From positions 14,884,141 to 14,948,140 of the forward strand of contig OX439044.1 in the NCBI GenBank assembly GCA_949317995.1: a stretch of DNA of 64,000 nt. Reading direction: 5' to 3'. The stretch comes from Acholoe squamosa. Its lineage: Eukaryota; Annelida; Polychaeta; Phyllodocida; Polynoidae. Of the stretch, positions 2,560 to 60,175 are shown piece by piece. Each line of letters opens with the position of its first letter. Position 1 is the first letter of the stretch. The notes under the pieces are model-generated. The model was not told where the DNA came from, ran no database searches, and worked only from the letters and a program-made list of their open reading frames with translations. The translations under genes and the position numbers were made by a program.

Positions 2560-3129
2560 TTATAGCAAAGTTTTGTGTACATCATTTTCAGAAATGCAGT
2601 CATTAATATATGATAAGAAGAACAAAGGACCCAAAATTGAACCCTGGGGTACCCCACATGCCAAATTAGCCTTTTCAGAGTGAATATGGTTTGCAATAGA
2701 ACATTGTTGTCTCCTGGACAAATAATTCTCAATTAAAGTCACATTTCTATTACTAATTCCATATTGTTCAAGTTTATATAATGATATTAAATGGTTTACA
2801 GAATCAAATGCCTTTTTTATATCTATGAAGGCAGCCATTGTTATATTACCATTGTTTTTATTCTTTAATATATCATCAACCAATACCGATATAGAGTCAA
2901 TTGTAGACTTGAACTTCTGATAGCCACCTTGATTTTTTGATAAAATATTGTATCTGTCTAGGTGATAGCTTAATTTATTATGAATAAGTCTCTCTAGTAC
3001 CTTGCCTGGAACAGGTAATACACTAATCGGTCTGAGGTTTGATACATTGGATGGATCGCCACCTTTTGGTAGAGGAGTCACAGTAGCAATTTTCCAGCTA
3101 TCTGGTATTAAACCTGTATTTGTAATCAA
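2560..3129 (-). pseudogene. LINE reverse transcriptase core, broken at the YxDD box
   Basis: 189 codons. The opening segment 'PDSWKIATVTPLPKGGDPSN' followed by 'NLRPISVLP' is RT motifs 0-2. 'AFIDIKKAFDSVNH' (about residues 101-114) holds the first catalytic Asp. 'GVPQGSILGPLFF' (about 158-170) is motif B. The frame stops exactly where the YxDD box should begin: the codons read stop-Ser-Asp-Asp-stop (Asp-Asp codons at complement of 2551-2556). So the tyrosine codon has become a stop and catalysis is lost. The upstream linker and endonuclease are in other frames. Confidence 0.9.
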
Positions 3130-34557: not shown

Positions 34558-35120
34558 AAACTCGTCATAAGTGATGAATTTAGGGTTGTCAGGCCATTGT
34601 GATGACCTAAAGTCATCATTCTGACGACCCTGTATGGTCCTCTAGTGTACAGATATCCCATAAGAGGGCCCTACTATCCAATTTCAGTATGCCCATATGA
34701 TAAAATCCAGGATGTGTATCAACTTATTCTTCAATTAATGGTTGTGCCTTGTGCATTAGAAAGTTAAGGGTGCAATAATCATTTGATGCAGATGGAGTTT
34801 TATTATAATTCCCTACTACATTGATTGAGTATACATCTGATAATAGATGCTTAAATGTATCAGCGAGATTGTCATGGCCAATCTGATCAATCTGCTGATT
34901 TGAAATGGAATTCAATGTCAAATGTCTGTATAGTATCACACATCAGAGACATACGTTTTCTTCACAGCATAATAAAGCTTAATGTGTTGCCAAAGAGACG
35001 ACTTTAGGTCATCACTAATGACCTAAAGTCATCACCTATGCCTACCCCATGACGACCTAAAGCTGTAGATTTAGGTATTGTCAACCTGAAGACTTAAAGT
35101 CATCACTGCTGACAAGTTTT
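34558..35120. mobile_element. MITE-like block of GACGACTTTAGGTCGTC palindromes
   Basis: Ends 'aaactcgtcataagtgatga' and (complement) 'aaacttgtcagcagtgatga' form inverted termini. Inside, 'gatgacctaaagtcatca' and variants occur several times in both orientations. Arm B holds the same element (58.27-60.64 kb, interrupted by another insertion), so it predates the duplication. Confidence 0.6.
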
Positions 35121-35293
35121 TGACTGTCAGAGGATTTGAGTGTAACTAGCAGAGTGATATCTTTTAAGAGGAGACTGTACATAATGTTAATCATGATGCA
35201 TAACTAGTGACTGAAAGAAGTAATGGGTCACTATAAAAGTACATCTGCATTTTAAAATATCTTTAATTCACAGATTAGGCAAGGCTAATGTAG

Positions 35294-35527
35294 TGTAGGG
35301 GCCAGCTCTGCCATACAAAGCCAGCTGCCCCGTTCCGCGTGTTCCAGCCTAGCCACCTGGCACCTGGTGGTAGCTGCCCCTATGTGTGTCATACCGATCC
35401 AGGTGTAGATGGAAGGCAGAGAATGTCAGACGGGGAAGTAGCTCAGCGGTAGAGCTTCCGCCTGCAGGTTGGAGGGTCCCGGGTTCGACTCCCGGTTTCT
35501 CCAGGACATTTTCCGCCGACCCCTACA
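35294..35527 (+). repeat. 5' LTR (234 bp)
   Basis: Begins TGTAGGGGCC and ends CCCCTACA, a perfect 8-bp terminal inverted repeat. The first 138 bp have no recognisable motif. The tRNA-like gene fills 35432-35503, and the last 24 bp hold a TTTT pol III terminator (35509-35512). Confidence 0.85.
35432..35503 (+). tRNA. tRNA-Cys(GCA)-like gene inside the 5' LTR
   Basis: Full cloverleaf: acceptor GGGGAAG/TTTCTCC (two G-U), D arm GCTC-AGCGGTA-GAGC, anticodon stem TCCGC/TTGGA (one mismatch, one G-U), loop CTGCAGG with anticodon GCA, variable GGGTC, T arm CCGGG-TTCGACT-CCCGG, discriminator A. A box TAGCTCAGCGG and B box GGTTCGACTCC are consensus. CCA is not encoded, as in eukaryotes. TTTT follows six bases later. 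Whether it makes a charged tRNA or only serves as promoter or primer cannot be told. Confidence 0.8.
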
Positions 35528-35528
35528 C

Positions 35529-35542
35529 TGGTGGAGAAACCG
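35529..35542 (+). promoter_or_regulatory. Primer-binding site matching the element's own tRNA
   Basis: TGGTGGAGAAACCG is the exact reverse complement of CGGTTTCTCCA plus post-transcriptional CCA, i.e. of the 3' end of the tRNA encoded at 35432-35503. It begins two bases after the 5' LTR. The same bases could also pair back on the LTR copy (11 bp, about 28-nt loop). Confidence 0.8.
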
Positions 35543-35747
35543 AGTGGTCCTGACCTGTGAGAGGGGGGACTACGAGAACTCGGTACCAGGGCCGGTATGC
35601 CACAAATGCGATTCAATCTGCTAAGTACTAGGGGACTTGGAAACAGGTGGCACCCTCAGAGATTCCTGGGAACAGGAGTTGGCTACACTGAAGGTGACTC
35701 AGTACTAGTCCTGGGTGTCTGGTTCCGAGCCCTAGGTTGAATCTGGT

Positions 35748-35756
35748 AGGGAGGAG
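35748..35756 (+). promoter_or_regulatory. Polypurine tract
   Basis: AGGGAGGAG immediately precedes the 3' LTR, where plus-strand DNA synthesis is primed in LTR retroelements. Short but in exactly the expected place. Confidence 0.65.
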
Positions 35757-35990
35757 TGTAGGGGCCAGCTCTGCCATACAAAGCCAGCTGCCCCATTTCG
35801 GGTGTTCCAGCCTAGCCACCTGGCACCTGGTGGTAGCTGCCCCTATGTGTGTCATACCGATCCAGGTGTAGATGGAAAGCAGAGAATGTCAGACGGGGAA
35901 GTAGCTCAGCGGTAGAGCTTCCGCCTGCAGGTTGGAGGGTCCCGGGTTCGACTCCTGGTTTCTCCAGGACATTTTCCGCCGACCTCTACA
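35757..35990 (+). repeat. 3' LTR (234 bp)
   Basis: Same length as the 5' LTR with no indel and six substitutions seen by eye: three near position 40-50, one before the tRNA, one in the T arm, one in the terminal repeat. This low divergence implies insertion after the older arm duplication. Confidence 0.85.
35895..35966 (+). tRNA. tRNA-Cys(GCA)-like gene inside the 3' LTR
   Basis: Identical to the 5' LTR copy except for one C-to-T change in the 3' T-stem strand (CCTGG), which leaves a G-U pair. A and B boxes are unchanged. The folded structure is preserved. Confidence 0.75.
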
Positions 35991-37997
35991 GTTGTTAGGA
36001 GCCCACTATAAAGAAGGAAGTCCCCTATTTTCTTCATAACCGCTCTGATAATGGCTTAACCATATGAATATCTGAATCAGTACATTATGTAACCTAAAGC
36101 ACATGCACTGGTGTGTTATACTTATGGTCTCACTTCATCAGAAACATATATTGATTAGGATCTTCAAGATTCTCTGTTTCCTGAGTTATGTGCTTGGGGG
36201 GGGGCAGTTGGCCAAAATCTAGGTACCAACTACTGTATTGTAGCATCATGCAAACAGAGAAACTGGAATCTGGAAGTGGTTATATCTTGTGGCTCTTAGA
36301 TAGTTAAAAACCTACAATATCTTGATTTATCAGCACAAGAGGCACACAATGTGACCAGAATAGTGGGGACTGTGGACTGCCATCTTAGCTAGACAATATT
36401 TTGGGTGATTAAACCTCTTACCCTCTTAAAATGGGTTCATAGCAAGCGCATGTATGGAGAAGACAATTAACTTCCAGTAAAAATGAGTAATGTATTGCAT
36501 TGACACACTTTAAAGTGTCAGTGAACATCAAGATATCCCTTTCTTTTTATTTGGTACAGAGATAGACACTGTAGTATGTAGCAGTCCATTTATAGTGTGA
36601 TGTGGCCAACTCAAAGTACTTGTGGTTTACTCATGGTAATGATGATAAAAAGCTGGAACCATATTGGCTTAAAGGCTTAAGACTTTAAGATGATTTTCAT
36701 ATCCATGGTCAGGTGCCCCCTCTGAGTTTTCCTACTATAGCAGAGACTCTACAATAAATCATAGCTTTCACAGGGGTCCAGGTGGACGACTCATGGTCGC
36801 TTTACCCTACTGATTATCAGGATTCCCAAGTGGCATCTTAAATGAATGAAGTGAGAGTCACTGAGAGAGTATGTGGGGCTTACAGATAGCTTCATCAGTA
36901 AGTAGCACAGGTCCTGGGATCTTCTGGAATATATAAGACAGTAATCTTCCTAGTACCAAAGGGAATGCTTACAAAGGATCCAGGTCAAACTTACTATTCC
37001 TCCCACCTTTGTGATTCTAAGTTACATATTTGGGATTCCCCATAAAAAGAAAAGTCTCTTCCTTTTCCCCTAAACAAAGTAGTGGTTCTGACAATAATGA
37101 AAGACACCCATCCCCTGAGGGGAGAGGGGTACACCAAAGGCTGTTGCAGCACTAGTGATGCCACCCCTGGTACTCAGTCTGTTGATCAAGCAGTGGGTAA
37201 ATAAGCCAAGCCTGCTATACATAGTAACCAGACAAAATGAAATGGGTGATGTGCTAGGCAGATTCTCGTGTGCATGATGTGGTGGGTGCTAGGGAGCAAT
37301 ATGGATACATGTGTGAGGGAAGGCACATCGGTTGAAAGAAAGCTAGCCCTTTCCAAAAAGCCTCAGGGAATACTACACTTCTGTTAAAGGAAAGGCTCCA
37401 AAAGGCAGCTGTGGATTGTTTGGACTGGTACCCATAGAGTTATGTAATGAATCAAATGCACCCTAAAATTGTGCAGAGAATAAAGGGAATTATCTCAATG
37501 GTCAATAATACATCCCGGTACCTCCCAATAATGCATCCTTAGTTCATTCAGATGCATCATTGTCATCATGAGGCACAAATGCAGTACTGGTGAGTCTACT
37601 TGCCATTACTCACATTTGGTGCATCAAATTACCATTCGAGGGTGTCTCAAACATGACATGATGTGTGAATGAAATACCAGAAAATTACATTGATACAATG
37701 GGACGAACGAGCATAAATGTATACACTTTTATGCAATCAAATGTTCATGTGATGCTGTGCAGTGTCAAAGCTGTGTCTGGTAGAAGAACCCATCTACAGC
37801 CTAAATAAATAAATGCTCTATCCAGGTGGTGACTGGGATGGCAGGAAACAATTCATCTTTATTTCTTTACTTTGGCAGCCACTGCTGCGATCTCTGTTGA
37901 AACAGGAGGTTTTGATGATGACATCATTTCCTGAGATGGTTACCAACTGTTTCGGAAGGACAGGAACCTGAAAAGGGGAGGTGGGGTAGCAATCTAC

Positions 37998-39105: not shown

Positions 39106-39894
39106 GTGGAAATTCTGGTAAAGGAGATTAACCCTAGTAAAACGTCTTGCATGAAGGATGTACATACTTCATATCTAAAAGAGGCACTACTCTTGCTTAT
39201 TGACCAGTTGACACACTTGATTAATGAATCATTTGACCAAGGTATTGTCCCTGATGCATGGAAAGAGGCTAGAGTGTCTACAATCCCAAAGCCAGGAAAT
39301 CCTAAGGATACAAATAACTGGCGACTGATATCGCTGCTCTCCGTAGTGTCTTAAATTGCAGAGAAGTGCATGCATGGGCATCTAACAGAATGCATGAAAA
39401 TTAGAGGTTCAATTAGCAATAGGCAATACGGATATCAGTCAGGGCTTGGTACTGGTGATGCAATATTTGAGTTAGCCAATGATCTTTATAAGAAACGAGA
39501 CTTGGCAGAGGTGACTGCCTTGTGTTTCATTGACCTGAAAAAGGCGTTTGACTCTGTAGACCATAAGTATCTCATACATAAGCTGAAGAGCCTGAACTTA
39601 CAAAAGTGTGACTATATGTGGTTGGTAAGTTACCTAGATGATAGAACACAATACAGGGAAATTGGGGGTTACAAATCAGGGTGTGAGGGGGTGGCCTTTG
39701 GAGTCCCACAAGGCTCTGTACTAGGGCCCCTACTTTTCATATTCTTTATTGATGACCTAGCCTCCAACCTTGGATACTGTAGTAGCAAGCTCTACGCAGA
39801 TGATTTGGTGTTTTACTGTTCCGACAGAAATGCACAATTGGCGGATGACACGATCTGGTTAAAGTTGCAGACAAATGTGTGGAGCTCTGGCTAA
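39106..39894 (+). pseudogene. LINE reverse transcriptase with intact YADD
   Basis: 'AWKEARVSTIPKPGNPKDTN' opens the RT domain, and a stop near 39352 breaks it. The next segment (39370-39894, 174 codons) has 'CFIDLKKAFDSVDH' (motif A), 'GVPQGSVLGPLLFIFFIDDL' (motif B) and 'LYADDLVFYCS' (motif C) with all three catalytic Asp present. A frame change near 39880 leads to the thumb. Target-primed reverse transcriptase, inactive as it stands. Confidence 0.9.
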
Positions 39895-51648: not shown

Positions 51649-52617
51649 TCAAATCGACAACTCTTTTCCCAAGCAGCTTGACACTACCATGTCAGTCTCA
51701 ATACGTGTGTGATAGGGTTTAGTCAGGTACAATAAGGCGGCCATACTGGCCCAGTCCCCGGCCTGATGTATGTCCTCCAAAGAGAGTCCCATACGGTACA
51801 TGTATAGAGCTCCCGCTCTCCTGAGGGAGTGCATGCCAGCGTGTTCTGAAGGTAAGTCGGCTAAAAACATTAACCTCTTCAGAAATTTCAGCAATTGACC
51901 GTAAGTGACTGGTACCAGTTCTGAGTTCTTGGGAAGTACAAAAGCTGGAGCTGATGGGTCAGAACTGGGGAATTCATTTAAATGACGTCTGACTAGACTT
52001 GCAGCACATAGGGGAGATCCGGGGGCATAAGTGATTGGCACCTTGTCTACTCTCTGGCCATGCTGAATAGTCTTAGAACTAGACACGGCCAGCTCCATGC
52101 CCCAGTCTGTGAAACTAACCGCTCCGCGCCTGAGATAATGAACTCCAACAGCTGAGATAGAGTCTGGGACAATATTAGATTTCCTGAGTAGCCCTCTAAA
52201 GCTCAGTGCCAGGCAGGTCCATAGGACTCTATCACGAGTTTGACTCATGTCGACAAATTTATACATATTGAGTATGTCTTTTAAGGTGAACGATGGGCGC
52301 ACTGGTTCAGGATCACCTAAGACCCTGCGAACCCCAGCTAAAGTCATAATGAATTCAAAAGAAGAGCGGATAAACTTGACATCATAACCATAGTACATAT
52401 TCAACGAGATCACTCCGCTAACATAATTTTGGATAGTCGAGTACTTAAGACTTCTCGCCATGTCCACGACATAACGGCACATATGTTGAGCGTCTGGTGT
52501 GAGGATTGAGTTACTGAAACTTATGTAACGCTTCCACTGGGAAGCCTTTGTCCTCCACGTACTGGGGGCCCATGCCTTGGACCTATACTCGGCTGCTTCC
52601 AAGTCTAACTGGCACAC
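51649..52617 (-). CDS. Tyrosine recombinase (DIRS/Ngaro-type)
   Basis: 322 codons, intact. The N-terminal SAM-like core-binding part runs about residues 10-100 ('WRTKASQWKRYISFSNSILT'), and the catalytic domain from about 108. Candidate catalytic residues are Arg145 in 'RGLLRKSNIVP', Lys183 in 'SKTIQ', His263 and Arg266 in 'MHSLRRAG', Trp289 in 'GDWAS' and Tyr297 in 'LLYLTKP'. These are the R-K-H-R-(H/W)-Y set of the family. 'LRKSNIVP' followed by 'LRRG' is common in DIRS/Ngaro recombinases. It would integrate circular cDNA without a target duplication. The start is the first Met; the fused upstream RNase H frame ends 8 bp before it. Apparently undamaged, unlike every other mobile gene here. 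Confidence 0.85.
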   Translation of the reverse strand: MCQLDLEAAEYRSKAWAPSTWRTKASQWKRYISFSNSILTPDAQHMCRYVVDMARSLKYSTIQNYVSGVISLNMYYGYDVKFIRSSFEFIMTLAGVRRVLGDPEPVRPSFTLKDILNMYKFVDMSQTRDRVLWTCLALSFRGLLRKSNIVPDSISAVGVHYLRRGAVSFTDWGMELAVSSSKTIQHGQRVDKVPITYAPGSPLCAASLVRRHLNEFPSSDPSAPAFVLPKNSELVPVTYGQLLKFLKRLMFLADLPSEHAGMHSLRRAGALYMYRMGLSLEDIHQAGDWASMAALLYLTKPYHTRIETDMVVSSCLGKELSI

Positions 52618-56374: not shown

Positions 56375-58959
56375 TCTAGGTCCAGAGCTCTACCTGATAC
56401 TAGAAGGCCAACAATACAATGTGTAAATGGCTTTGGTTCCATATGCTTTTTTATGGGTGCACTCACTGTATAGGATTTTGAAGCATGCATAGTTTTAACG
56501 AGTTTATGACAACTCGACACTTGACAAAGGGTTGAGTTGTTAACTAGTTGATAATCATGTTTATTTAACCTATGCCTATATTGCAGATAATTGTAATAAA
56601 AGATAATATATAACAAAAGTAGCCTTGGTGGTTGAATGTGTCTTTGGCTATTGCTTTGACCTTGGTCTTGTGACCTTCAACACCCTAAATTGTTAGGAAG
56701 CGGTTTTACACATTTAAAGCATAGTATTTCTCAACATATTGGTTCTCAATGGCTCAAAAAGGCCTTTGACCTAGATATTGTCCTTCAACTCGACCTTGTG
56801 ACCTTTGGTACTGACCTTAAGTAGTGCTTTGGTGTAGGTATCAACCATTATATACTTGTTATTTTATTGATTTCACACAGAAACTGCTGAATATTTCTAT
56901 GCCTATTAATTGAGAAGAAATTACATTTTTTGAATTAGATTTTCCTGGTGGCCATTTTGGAAAATCAAGTTTTACGGAATTTCCCTGGGGATGCCAACTT
57001 GGCATCATTTGGATCTGTGATCAGGGTTGTCTTACGGTTCAGAATCACCAATAACCCACCATACGTCCTTCGCTGCGAGGTTAGGTTACCTTCATACCAG
57101 ATTGGCACCCAGACTATAAGACCTGGATCCTTTGTAAGTATTGCCTTTGCTACACAGAAGATTACTGTCCTATATTTTCCAGAAGATCCCAGGGCCTGTG
57201 CTAATTACTGATTAATTACTGAATCTAAACAGCTATCTGATAAATTATAAGCTCCACATACCATCTCAGTGACTCTTACTTAATTCATTTGCCATGCCAG
57301 TTGGGAATCCTGATAATCAGTAGGGTAAAGTGACCATGAGTCGTCCACCTGGACCCCTGTGAAAGCTATGATTTATTGAGTCTCTGCTGTAGTAGAAAAA
57401 CTTGGACAGGGCACCTGACCATGGATATGAAAATCATCTTAAAGTCTTAAGCCTTCAAGCCAATATGGTTCCAACTTTTCATCATCATTACCATGAGTAA
57501 GCCACAAGTACCTTGAGTTGGCCACATCACACTATAAATGGACTGCTACATACTACAGTGTCTATTTCTGTACCAAATAAAAAGAAAGGGCTATCTTGAT
57601 GTTCACCGACACTTTAAAGTGTGTGAATGCAATGCATTACTCATTTTTACTGTAAGTTAATTGTCTTATCTAGGGTAAGAGGTTCAATCACCCAAAACAT
57701 TGTCTAGCCAAGATGGCAGTCCCCAGTCCCCGCCATTCTGGTCACATTTTGTGTCTCTCACATTGTGTGCCTCTGATAAATCAAGATCTTATAGGCTTTT
57801 AACCATCTAAGAGCCACAAGGTTCCAGTTTCTCTGTTGGCATGATGCTAAAATACAGTAGTTGGTACCTAAATTTTGGCTAACTGCCCCCCCAAGCACAC
57901 ACACAAGCAAATAACTCAGGAAACAGAATCTTGAATATCCTAATCAATATATGTTTCTGATGAAGTCAGACCATAAGTATAACGCAACAGTGCATGTGCT
58001 TTAGGTTACATAATGTACTGATTCAGATTTTCATATGGTTAAGCCATTATCAGAGTGGTTATGAAGAAAATAGGGGACTTCCTTCTTTATAGTGGGCTCC
58101 TAACAATATTAGCCTTCCCTAATCTGTGATTTAAAGATATTTTAAAATGCAGATGTACTTCTATAGTGACCCACTAATTAGTACTGTCAGTCACTAGTTA
58201 TGCATCATGATTAACATTATGTACAGTCTCCTCTTAAACGATATCACTCTGCTAGTTACACTCAAAACCTCTGATGGTCAGAAACTCTTCAGCAGTGACG
58301 ACTTTATGTCTTCAGGTTGAAAATACCCAAATCTACAGCTTTAGGTTGTCATGGGGTAGTCATAGGTGACGACTTTAGGTCATTAGTGACGACCTAAAGT
58401 CGTCTCTTTGGCAACAAATTAAGCTTCATTATGCTGTACAGAAAACGTATGTCTCTGATGTGTGATACTATACAGACATTTGACATTGGATTCCATTTCA
58501 AATCAGCAGATTGGCTCAGATTGGCCATGGCAATCTCGCTGATACATTTTAGCATCTATTATCAGATGTATGCTCAATCAATGTAGTAGGGAATTATAAT
58601 AAAACTCCATCTGCATCAAATGATTATTGCACCCTTAACTTTCAAAGCACAAGGCACAACCATTAATTGAAGAATTAGTTGATACACATACACAACATGT
58701 TATCATATGTGCATACTGGATAGTAGGGCCCTCTGTACAACCCTATCTGTGTAAATGACTGCTATCTGCAGTACTGCAGATAGAGCCTGACAATCCAACC
58801 TCTATCTGTGTAAAACTGATGTTATCTGCACAAAATTGAGTGTAGAAAACAGCTGTTATCTGCATCAAGGGCAAATCACATTTCCCCTTACACTAACTGC
58901 ATCAACATACACTAACTGCAGTATTGGCCTCAAAACATGTCTCATTTAATGGAATGAGT

Positions 58960-59784: not shown

Positions 59785-60175
59785 TATTCGGTGAGGGAAC
59801 CAGTAGCTACTTTATATGGGAACCAGCAGCTATCTGATGTGGGAACCAGCAGATACTGTATGTGGGAACCAGCAGGTAGTGTTGCAGGAACATGCAACTA
59901 CTGGGTGTGGGAACCAGCAGCTACTGGATGTGGGAACCAGAAGCTACTGTATATGGGAACCAGCAGGTACTAGGTGCAGGAACCAGCAACTAATGTGTAT
60001 GTGAACCAGTAGGTTCTAGCTGTGGGAACCAGCAGCTACTTGGTATGAGATCCAGTACCGGTAGTACTGGTGTGGAACCACCAGTTACAGTGTGTGGCAA
60101 CCACCAGTTACGGAATGCGGGAACCAGCAGCTACTTGGTGGGGAACCATCAATTATTGTGTGTGGGAACTGATAG
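59785..60175 (+). repeat. 23-bp minisatellite, about 16 units
   Basis: Unit 'gggaaccagcagctactgtat' plus two bases, recurring every 23 bp with changes, more degenerate after 60000. A period of 23 is not a multiple of three, so all frames stay partly open and yield repetitive pseudo-proteins. Confidence 0.85.

Follow-up and report, generated by a model that had tools for sequence, protein, structure and literature searches.

A miniature LTR retroelement of Acholoe squamosa whose LTRs carry a tRNA gene matching its own primer-binding site

The window, a stretch of 64,000 nucleotides from contig OX439044.1 of the annelid Acholoe squamosa, contains at 35294–35990 a 697 bp LTR element, which sequence analysis indicates to be real (Table 1). 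Its two LTRs are identical at 228 of 234 positions in a pairwise alignment, with six differences, and both start with TGTAGGGG and end with C[CT]CTACA. The interior has no open reading frame of at least 110 amino acids; it opens with one spacer base and the primer-binding site (PBS) TGGTGGAGAAACCG, and it closes with the polypurine tract GGGAGGAG. The TG...CA repeats and the polypurine tract had been noticed in a first-pass annotation made from the letters alone, and both are confirmed here. A length below about 1 kb, two short LTRs (234 bp), a non-coding interior (229 bp), and a PBS and polypurine tract at the interior ends give the element the anatomy of a TRIM. A longer repeat surrounds it (window 34663–35303 and 35992–36986) and has an inverted relative about 22 kb away (57120–58734), which reads GGCTAAT-ATTG-TTAGG, with ATTG at the duplication position. 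The flanks GTAG and GTTG, a 4 bp duplication with one mismatch that was absent from the first-pass annotation, together with this element-free inverted relative, indicate an LTR insertion with a 4 bp target-site duplication. One base of the duplication presumably changed after insertion.

Table 1. Features of the element and its insertion site in the window.
Feature	Position	Strand	Basis
Left target-site duplication, GTAG	35290..35293	+	4 bp preceding 5' LTR; empty-site paralogue in window
5' LTR, 234 bp, TGTAGGGG...CCCCTACA	35294..35527	+	Identity to 3' LTR; genome copies
tRNA gene in 5' LTR (ARAGORN Cys-GCA; Ala-like body)	35432..35503	+	ARAGORN, Rfam RF00005
A box, TAGCTCAGCGG	35439..35449	+	Read from sequence
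B box, GGTTCGACTCC	35482..35492	+	Read from sequence
tRNA 3' end, CGGTTTCTCCA; with added CCA pairs to PBS	35493..35503	+	End-to-PBS comparison
TTTT, minimal pol III terminator	35509..35512	+	T-run count in LTR tails
Internal region, 229 bp	35528..35756	+	LTR alignment; genome copies
PBS, TGGTGGAGAAACCG, one base inside 5' LTR end	35529..35542	+	Complement of tRNA 3' end + CCA
Polypurine tract, GGGAGGAG	35749..35756	+	Sequence; same in most aligned copies
3' LTR, 234 bp	35757..35990	+	Alignment to 5' LTR
tRNA gene in 3' LTR (13/14 to PBS)	35895..35966	+	ARAGORN, Rfam RF00005
TTTT 3' of 3' LTR tRNA	35972..35975	+	Sequence
Right target-site duplication, GTTG	35991..35994	+	Comparison with empty-site paralogue
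Empty-site paralogue of repeat hosting element	58095..58106	-	Repeat comparison inside window

Other mobile-element remains lie in the same window. A 322-residue open reading frame at 51649–52617 (-) gives a weak match to Phage_integrase, the tyrosine-recombinase family (E 2.4e-4, below the curated cut-off), and possibly belongs to a DIRS- or Crypton-like element. Reverse transcriptase fragments matching RVT_1 are found at 2560–3129 (-, E 1.6e-23) and 39370–39894 (+, E 9.8e-21), and a minisatellite with periods of 23, 46 and 91 bp at 59795–60169.

The only two tRNAs that ARAGORN finds in the window are those of the LTRs, both called tRNA-Cys(GCA), and they score 52.3 and 49.0 bits with Rfam RF00005 against a gathering score of 29. 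Within the 5' LTR gene, the segments that we read as the A box (TAGCTCAGCGG) and the B box (GGTTCGACTCC) agree with the consensus boxes of the first-pass annotation, and the TTTT terminator that it proposed is present in both LTRs, each time five bases after the tRNA. Of 77 distinct LTR tails, 76 have no T run longer than four and contain one of exactly that length, and the remaining one reaches five; this count leaves out L122–L131 because these were chosen by a pattern requiring TTTT. Other T4 runs are lacking from the interior and U3 of all 20 elements compared, which is a weak test because only 0.5–1.5 are expected by chance (five shuffled) and the copies are related. The minimum-energy structure that RNAfold gives for the tRNA alone is not a cloverleaf, and its energy is unremarkable (z -0.53); the predicted cloverleaf rests on the tRNA models.

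The element belongs to a family that we searched for in the whole genome (1.48 Gb, 63 contigs, 18 of chromosome size). The LTR query returned 3156 first-look candidates, which are not confirmed copies and of which 40 were scored; among the LTR matches listed, 41 have 93–100% identity, and 40 of these cover at least 214 of the 234 bases. The interior query returned 1806 candidates, likewise not confirmed copies, with 40 among the matches listed. From loci L001–L058, a script delimited 20 distinct LTR-pair sequences after collapsing identical pairs. Exact 4 bp flanks accompany 16 of them, including two with the same flanks that may represent a single insertion present twice in the assembly (L017 and L024) and one delimited as a 548 bp repeat that is probably two LTRs (L044); the flanks of the window copy and of three others are not identical. 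The element has thus transposed repeatedly with 4 bp duplications. Five pairs (L036, L046, L048, L053 and L055) combine LTRs of 252–253 bp and a 525 bp interior with no difference between LTRs, and the 249 bp LTRs of L038 and L039 are also identical within each pair. LTR pairs with zero or one difference imply recent movement, and the family is, to judge by these copies, large and recently active.

We distinguish subfamily A (the window type), B and B2 (young), C (the second element in L041), D (the outer LTRs of L003), E (L098, L101 and L102) and F (with TATCTCCA). The longest subfamily, with a 252 bp LTR and 525 bp interior, slightly exceeds 1 kb. When one copy per subfamily is compared (A, B, B2, C and D), identity is 73–99% in the tRNA and 43–86% in the LTR upstream of it. 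Two loci hold compound arrangements. L003 (reverse strand, approximately 1026–2123) consists of a D-type LTR, an A-type interior, an A-type LTR, a third interior and a D-type LTR, and looks like the product of recombination between subfamilies. In L041, two related elements with LTRs of the 252 and 220 bp types stand a few bases apart, and GATC flanks both as a whole. In IMG/VR viral contigs, neither the tRNA tail nor the LTR/PBS junction gave a match in a pattern scan.

A pair of SINE-like tRNA repeats that became tandem by chance would also present tRNA-derived sequence with A and B boxes. We regard this explanation as extremely improbable, given the TG..CA ends, the PBS, the polypurine tract, the 4 bp duplications in 16 of 20 pairs and the empty site. 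The first-pass annotation had named single SINEs with long duplications as the finding that would overturn its LTR reading; the copies are instead paired LTRs with short duplications. The SINE class as such, a single unit with a LINE-like or A-rich tail and long variable duplications, is contradicted by the LTR anatomy and the 4 bp duplications.

The identity of the LTR tRNA is not the one that its anticodon suggests. ARAGORN reads GCA in A, CGA or TGA in B, CGA in C and TGC in D; the anticodon is undefined in two E copies, and GCA is found in the window subfamily and in none of the other subfamilies read. No tRNA is called in L102 (E) or L089 (D-like). One copy each from A, B, C, D and E (L101 for the last) has complete pairing of the acceptor stem (7/7) and T stem (5/5); the acceptor stem retains 5/7 pairs in L098 and 6/7 in L089. 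G3:U70 and A73 are alanine identity elements. Both are kept in the tRNAs of A, B, C, D, L101, L098 and L089. Position 6:67 is A:U in A, B, C and E, U:G in D and U:A in host tRNA-Ala(TGC), to which the D-subfamily tRNA is close. By its acceptor stem and its likeness to host tRNA-Ala(TGC), the LTR tRNA is Ala-like. A tRNA gene in each LTR, as first annotated, is therefore upheld by ARAGORN and RF00005, but its assignment as tRNA-Cys is ruled out by the Ala-like body and by the drift of the anticodon among subfamilies. It speaks against a primer role of the LTR tRNA that an abundant tRNA with an Ala-type acceptor and a Cys or Ser anticodon could be harmful to translation.

The PBS of the window copy, the sole occurrence of this 14-mer in the window, is complementary at all 14 bases to the end of the 5' LTR tRNA with CCA added. 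The TGG of the PBS pairs with CCA, which the LTR does not encode. The complementarity stops at 14 bases, not 18, and the 3' LTR tRNA matches at 13 of 14 because of a change at LTR position 200; the exact match claimed for the LTR tRNA thus holds for the 5' LTR but not for the 3' LTR.

This match is kept, and both sides of it change together, across the genome. We counted LTR-end/PBS junctions by the bases at tRNA positions 66–67 and PBS positions 10–11, with the remaining bases of both ends intact. There are 1407 such junctions (739 + 668), of which 1185 are TT/AA (..TTTCTCCA with ..GAAACC), 184 are TG/CA (..TGTCTCCA with ..GACACC) and three are TA/TA (..TATCTCCA with ..GATACC). Since TT/AA, TG/CA and both crosses total 1383, there are 14 crosses between the first two types, compared with roughly 330 expected if the two positions were independent (assuming an even split of crosses); 21 other junctions remain. 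Because the copies share ancestry, these counts are evidence for about two joint changes and not for a thousand, and the co-variation reflects few evolutionary events, with two clear states and a rare third. By arithmetic, one random PBS change falls on the right site and yields the complementary base about once in 42 times.

Individual junctions give a similar picture. In the fetched loci, 39 distinct junctions were read (identical ones collapsed); the match is perfect in 23 of them, and one to three of the 14 bases are mismatched in the other 16. The junction script took near-intact ends only, so older copies were dropped. TT/AA accounts for 29 (17 with no mismatch, eight with one and four with two) and TG/CA for seven (six with none, one with one). 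The rest are TG/AA (L003), AA/TA (L127) and CA/CA (L129), the last two decayed. A non-T at position 67 followed by the family LTR tail occurs 609 times genome-wide, with 100 among the matches listed, and ten short stretches were fetched. All seven D-type stretches among them (TGTCTCCA) have the PBS TGGTGGAGACAC, with C opposite G67; one, L130, carries a change at PBS position 13. Of the F type, L127 has the PBS TGGTGGAGATACAG and L128 is a solo LTR without a PBS. In the decayed L129, the 5' LTR does not match its own PBS, and the presumed 3' LTR is of the TGTCTCCA type. Several observations speak against self-priming: the TG-type LTR of L003 is followed by an AA-type PBS, L129 does not fit its own 5' LTR, 16 of the 39 junctions are imperfect, the complementarity ends at 14 bases, and no tRNA is called in L089 and L102. 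The first-pass annotation had proposed co-variation as a check and loss of the match in most copies as a refutation; the match persists and co-varies. A PBS that tracks a changed tRNA points to a primer supplied by the element and not borrowed from the host.

These features point to a priming cycle that we consider probable, in which the tRNA of the LTR, after processing and CCA addition, acts as primer for reverse transcription by borrowed Gypsy-type machinery. The LTR gene, derived from tRNA-Ala and with an internal pol III promoter, would have pol III start at the tRNA. A stop at the minimal TTTT would yield a short tRNA precursor, which host enzymes would trim and provide with CCA, while read-through as far as the TTTT of the 3' LTR would yield a long template RNA. 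The tRNA 3' end (CGGTTTCTCCA-CCA in the window copy) would then anneal to the PBS and prime reverse transcription by the proteins of a Ty3/Gypsy-type element. Copying of the primer into the plus-strand PBS would rewrite that site to match the tRNA of the element's own LTR. In retroviruses, copying of the tRNA primer generates the plus-strand PBS, and HIV-1 with a foreign-tRNA PBS can be complemented by that tRNA in trans (PMC1785368, PMC1797187). It follows from such copying that proviral PBSs are expected to drift towards the primer used, and from both observations that element-encoded priming predicts co-variation. The earlier suggestion that the element brings a tRNA matching its own PBS is thus supported by the paired-LTR copies and by the kept and co-varying match, from which we infer priming. 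We lean, somewhat less firmly, towards the wider reading that this is the first natural retrotransposon to encode its own reverse transcription primer tRNA, with one leaky LTR pol III gene giving both primer (TTTT stop) and template (read-through), and with tRNA and PBS locked together by primer copying in each cycle.

Alternatively, the LTR tRNA may be a pol III promoter only, with a host tRNA-Ala serving the PBS and the match arising from the tRNA-Ala origin of the promoter. The canonical tRNA-Ala pattern has 208 matches in the genome, and 73 of the 100 listed lie in one tandem array on C12. This array of tRNA-Ala(AGC) genes spans C12:51451336–51480597, and gene spacings of 291 or 391 bp are frequent in it. 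At the A-type PBS, host tRNA-Ala(AGC) matches 13 of 14 bases, ten of them contiguous, and differs only at PBS position 11. The 3' end CGGTTTCTCCA is found in none of 33 distinct host tRNA-Ala genes read (30 loci). A canonical Ala anticodon with TTTCTCCA occurs in three genes genome-wide, all in the C12 array; they fit the PBS at 14/14 and would have a C7–U66 mismatch if their 5' end resembles that of their neighbours. Exact host donors are therefore rare but not absent. A looser tRNA-end pattern has 345 matches, and all 20 fetched of the 100 listed carry the family's LTR tail. Besides these host fits, a chance isotype match of perhaps 1 in 20 (an estimate) and the similar PBS of a Gypsy-type element favour a host primer. 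However, PBS position 10 tracks the element's own tRNA in three states, and the A at position 11 fits T66 of the LTR, whereas the 33 host genes read have G or C. Under host priming, the PBS should be rewritten to the host sequence, and position 11, which needs U66, disagrees with it save for the three array genes. We therefore consider priming by a host tRNA-Ala unlikely.

The LTR tRNA end and PBS could also form a hairpin in one RNA, with no free tRNA involved, in either a regulatory or a Tf1-like self-priming role. On one strand, about 25 nt separate the 11 encoded bases CGGTTTCTCCA from the PBS downstream of them, co-variation fits a hairpin equally, and Tf1 self-primes with its RNA 5' end (PMC7175516). 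That Tf1 primer is, however, the extreme 5' end of the RNA, and a hairpin leaves the TGG of the PBS without an LTR partner, yet TGG pairs with CCA. The pairing that the 5' acceptor strand keeps with the 3' strand would also be superfluous for a hairpin. This explanation is quite unlikely in our view. A role of the pairing in silencing or packaging, for example via PBS-binding tRNA fragments, is very unlikely: 3'-tRNA fragments are reported to target PBSs (PMC12853362, PMC7472051), but selection on the element should then weaken the match and not preserve it.

Priming by the LTR-encoded tRNA would require a partner that provides the proteins, and the PBS points to a candidate. PBS-like 13-mers followed by a non-G base occur 248 times genome-wide, against 19 for the reversed control. 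Among 12 such places fetched, all ten ending in CCC share another repeat downstream of the PBS, and both ending in CCT are TRIM copies. In L121, an LTR-like stretch with TATA and AATAAA ends in GTCGACA and is followed by one spacer base and the PBS TGGTGGAGAAACCC; a gag open reading frame (Retrotrans_gag, E 2.6e-4) and a reverse transcriptase fragment (RVT_1, E 4.2e-5) match below the curated cut-offs. L121 shares with the TRIM 13 identical PBS bases and the one-base spacer, and has an unrelated LTR. When the Gypsy-type copy was compared by BLAST with the LTRs and interiors of the TRIM, the best match outside the PBS had E 0.023 and lay on the other strand, and we regard the 13 PBS bases as the sole serious shared feature. 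The Gypsy-type element of L121 is a candidate partner. Because an element with an unrelated LTR is identical over 13 PBS bases, the A-type PBS may be ancestral. The Gypsy-type element with TGGTGGAGAAACCC is present in L121 and L109–L118; in L114, the same PBS and leader follow a different upstream sequence. In its boldest form, our proposal extends to a Gypsy-type helper: its PBS fits the LTR tRNA along 13 contiguous bases, and it too would use the tRNA of the TRIM.

LTR elements and retroviruses are taught as dependent on cellular tRNA for priming. If the proposed cycle is correct, the element is freed from the host tRNA supply and from host changes in that tRNA, primer and site could evolve together, and the tRNA in LTR elements gains a function beyond that of a promoter. 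An explicit negative in the literature, on complementarity between LTR tRNA and PBS, would become a testable positive case, for which the natural tRNA/PBS types are built-in controls. In addition, element tRNAs may inflate the number of tRNA genes counted in genomes of this kind.

Among known systems, pol III genes in LTRs have a precedent in plant Cassandra TRIMs, as summarized in the relevant part of PMC10886601; these carry 5S rRNA and not tRNA, have plant hosts, and no primer role is mentioned for them there. The biv-TRIM is likewise an animal TRIM with solo and tandem forms (PMC6934838). However, the portion of that paper considered gives it repeats of 202–218 bp, an inner domain of 77–80 bp and no unambiguous PBS, and reports no tRNA gene in the repeats; the 234 bp LTR and 229 bp interior rule out membership. 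A primer supplied by the element itself is shared with Tf1-type self-priming Gypsy elements, in which the PBS pairs with the 5' end of the RNA and RNase H makes the cleavage. A PBS matched to a tRNA from a co-delivered gene is shared with HIV-1 trans-complementation, which is a laboratory construct with the tRNA gene outside the LTR (PMC1785368).

The closest relative is Helenus (TRIMp3; Kojima 2024, PMC10886601), with which animal TRIMs containing tRNA-derived LTR sequence were already described. Helenus is a short non-coding LTR element with tRNA sequence in the LTR, a PBS and a polypurine tract; it has 4 bp duplications in animals (here exact in 16 of 20, with one mismatch in the window copy), several families per genome, tandem arrays in one family, and presumed Gypsy mobilization in animals. 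Animal Helenus elements have a Gypsy-like PBS, and here the 13 PBS bases and the spacer are shared with an element whose gag and reverse transcriptase matches fall below curated cut-offs. The bivalve primers named are Lys, His, Ile, Pro, Glu and Ser, with no Ala. The defining features tested, LTR tRNA, TRIM anatomy and 4 bp duplications, fit membership of Helenus. The novelty proposed at first therefore shrinks with respect to the LTR tRNA in an animal TRIM, and stands for the self-matching primer site; in a literature search that covered a minority of the subscription journals, none of the matches listed reports an LTR element with a PBS complementary to the tRNA of its own LTR. The Helenus paper states that complementarity between the tRNA-like LTR sequence and the PBS was not found, and that the LTR tRNA takes no part in priming. 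In contrast, the A. squamosa element has an LTR tRNA that is complementary to its PBS at 14 of 14 bases and co-varies with it.
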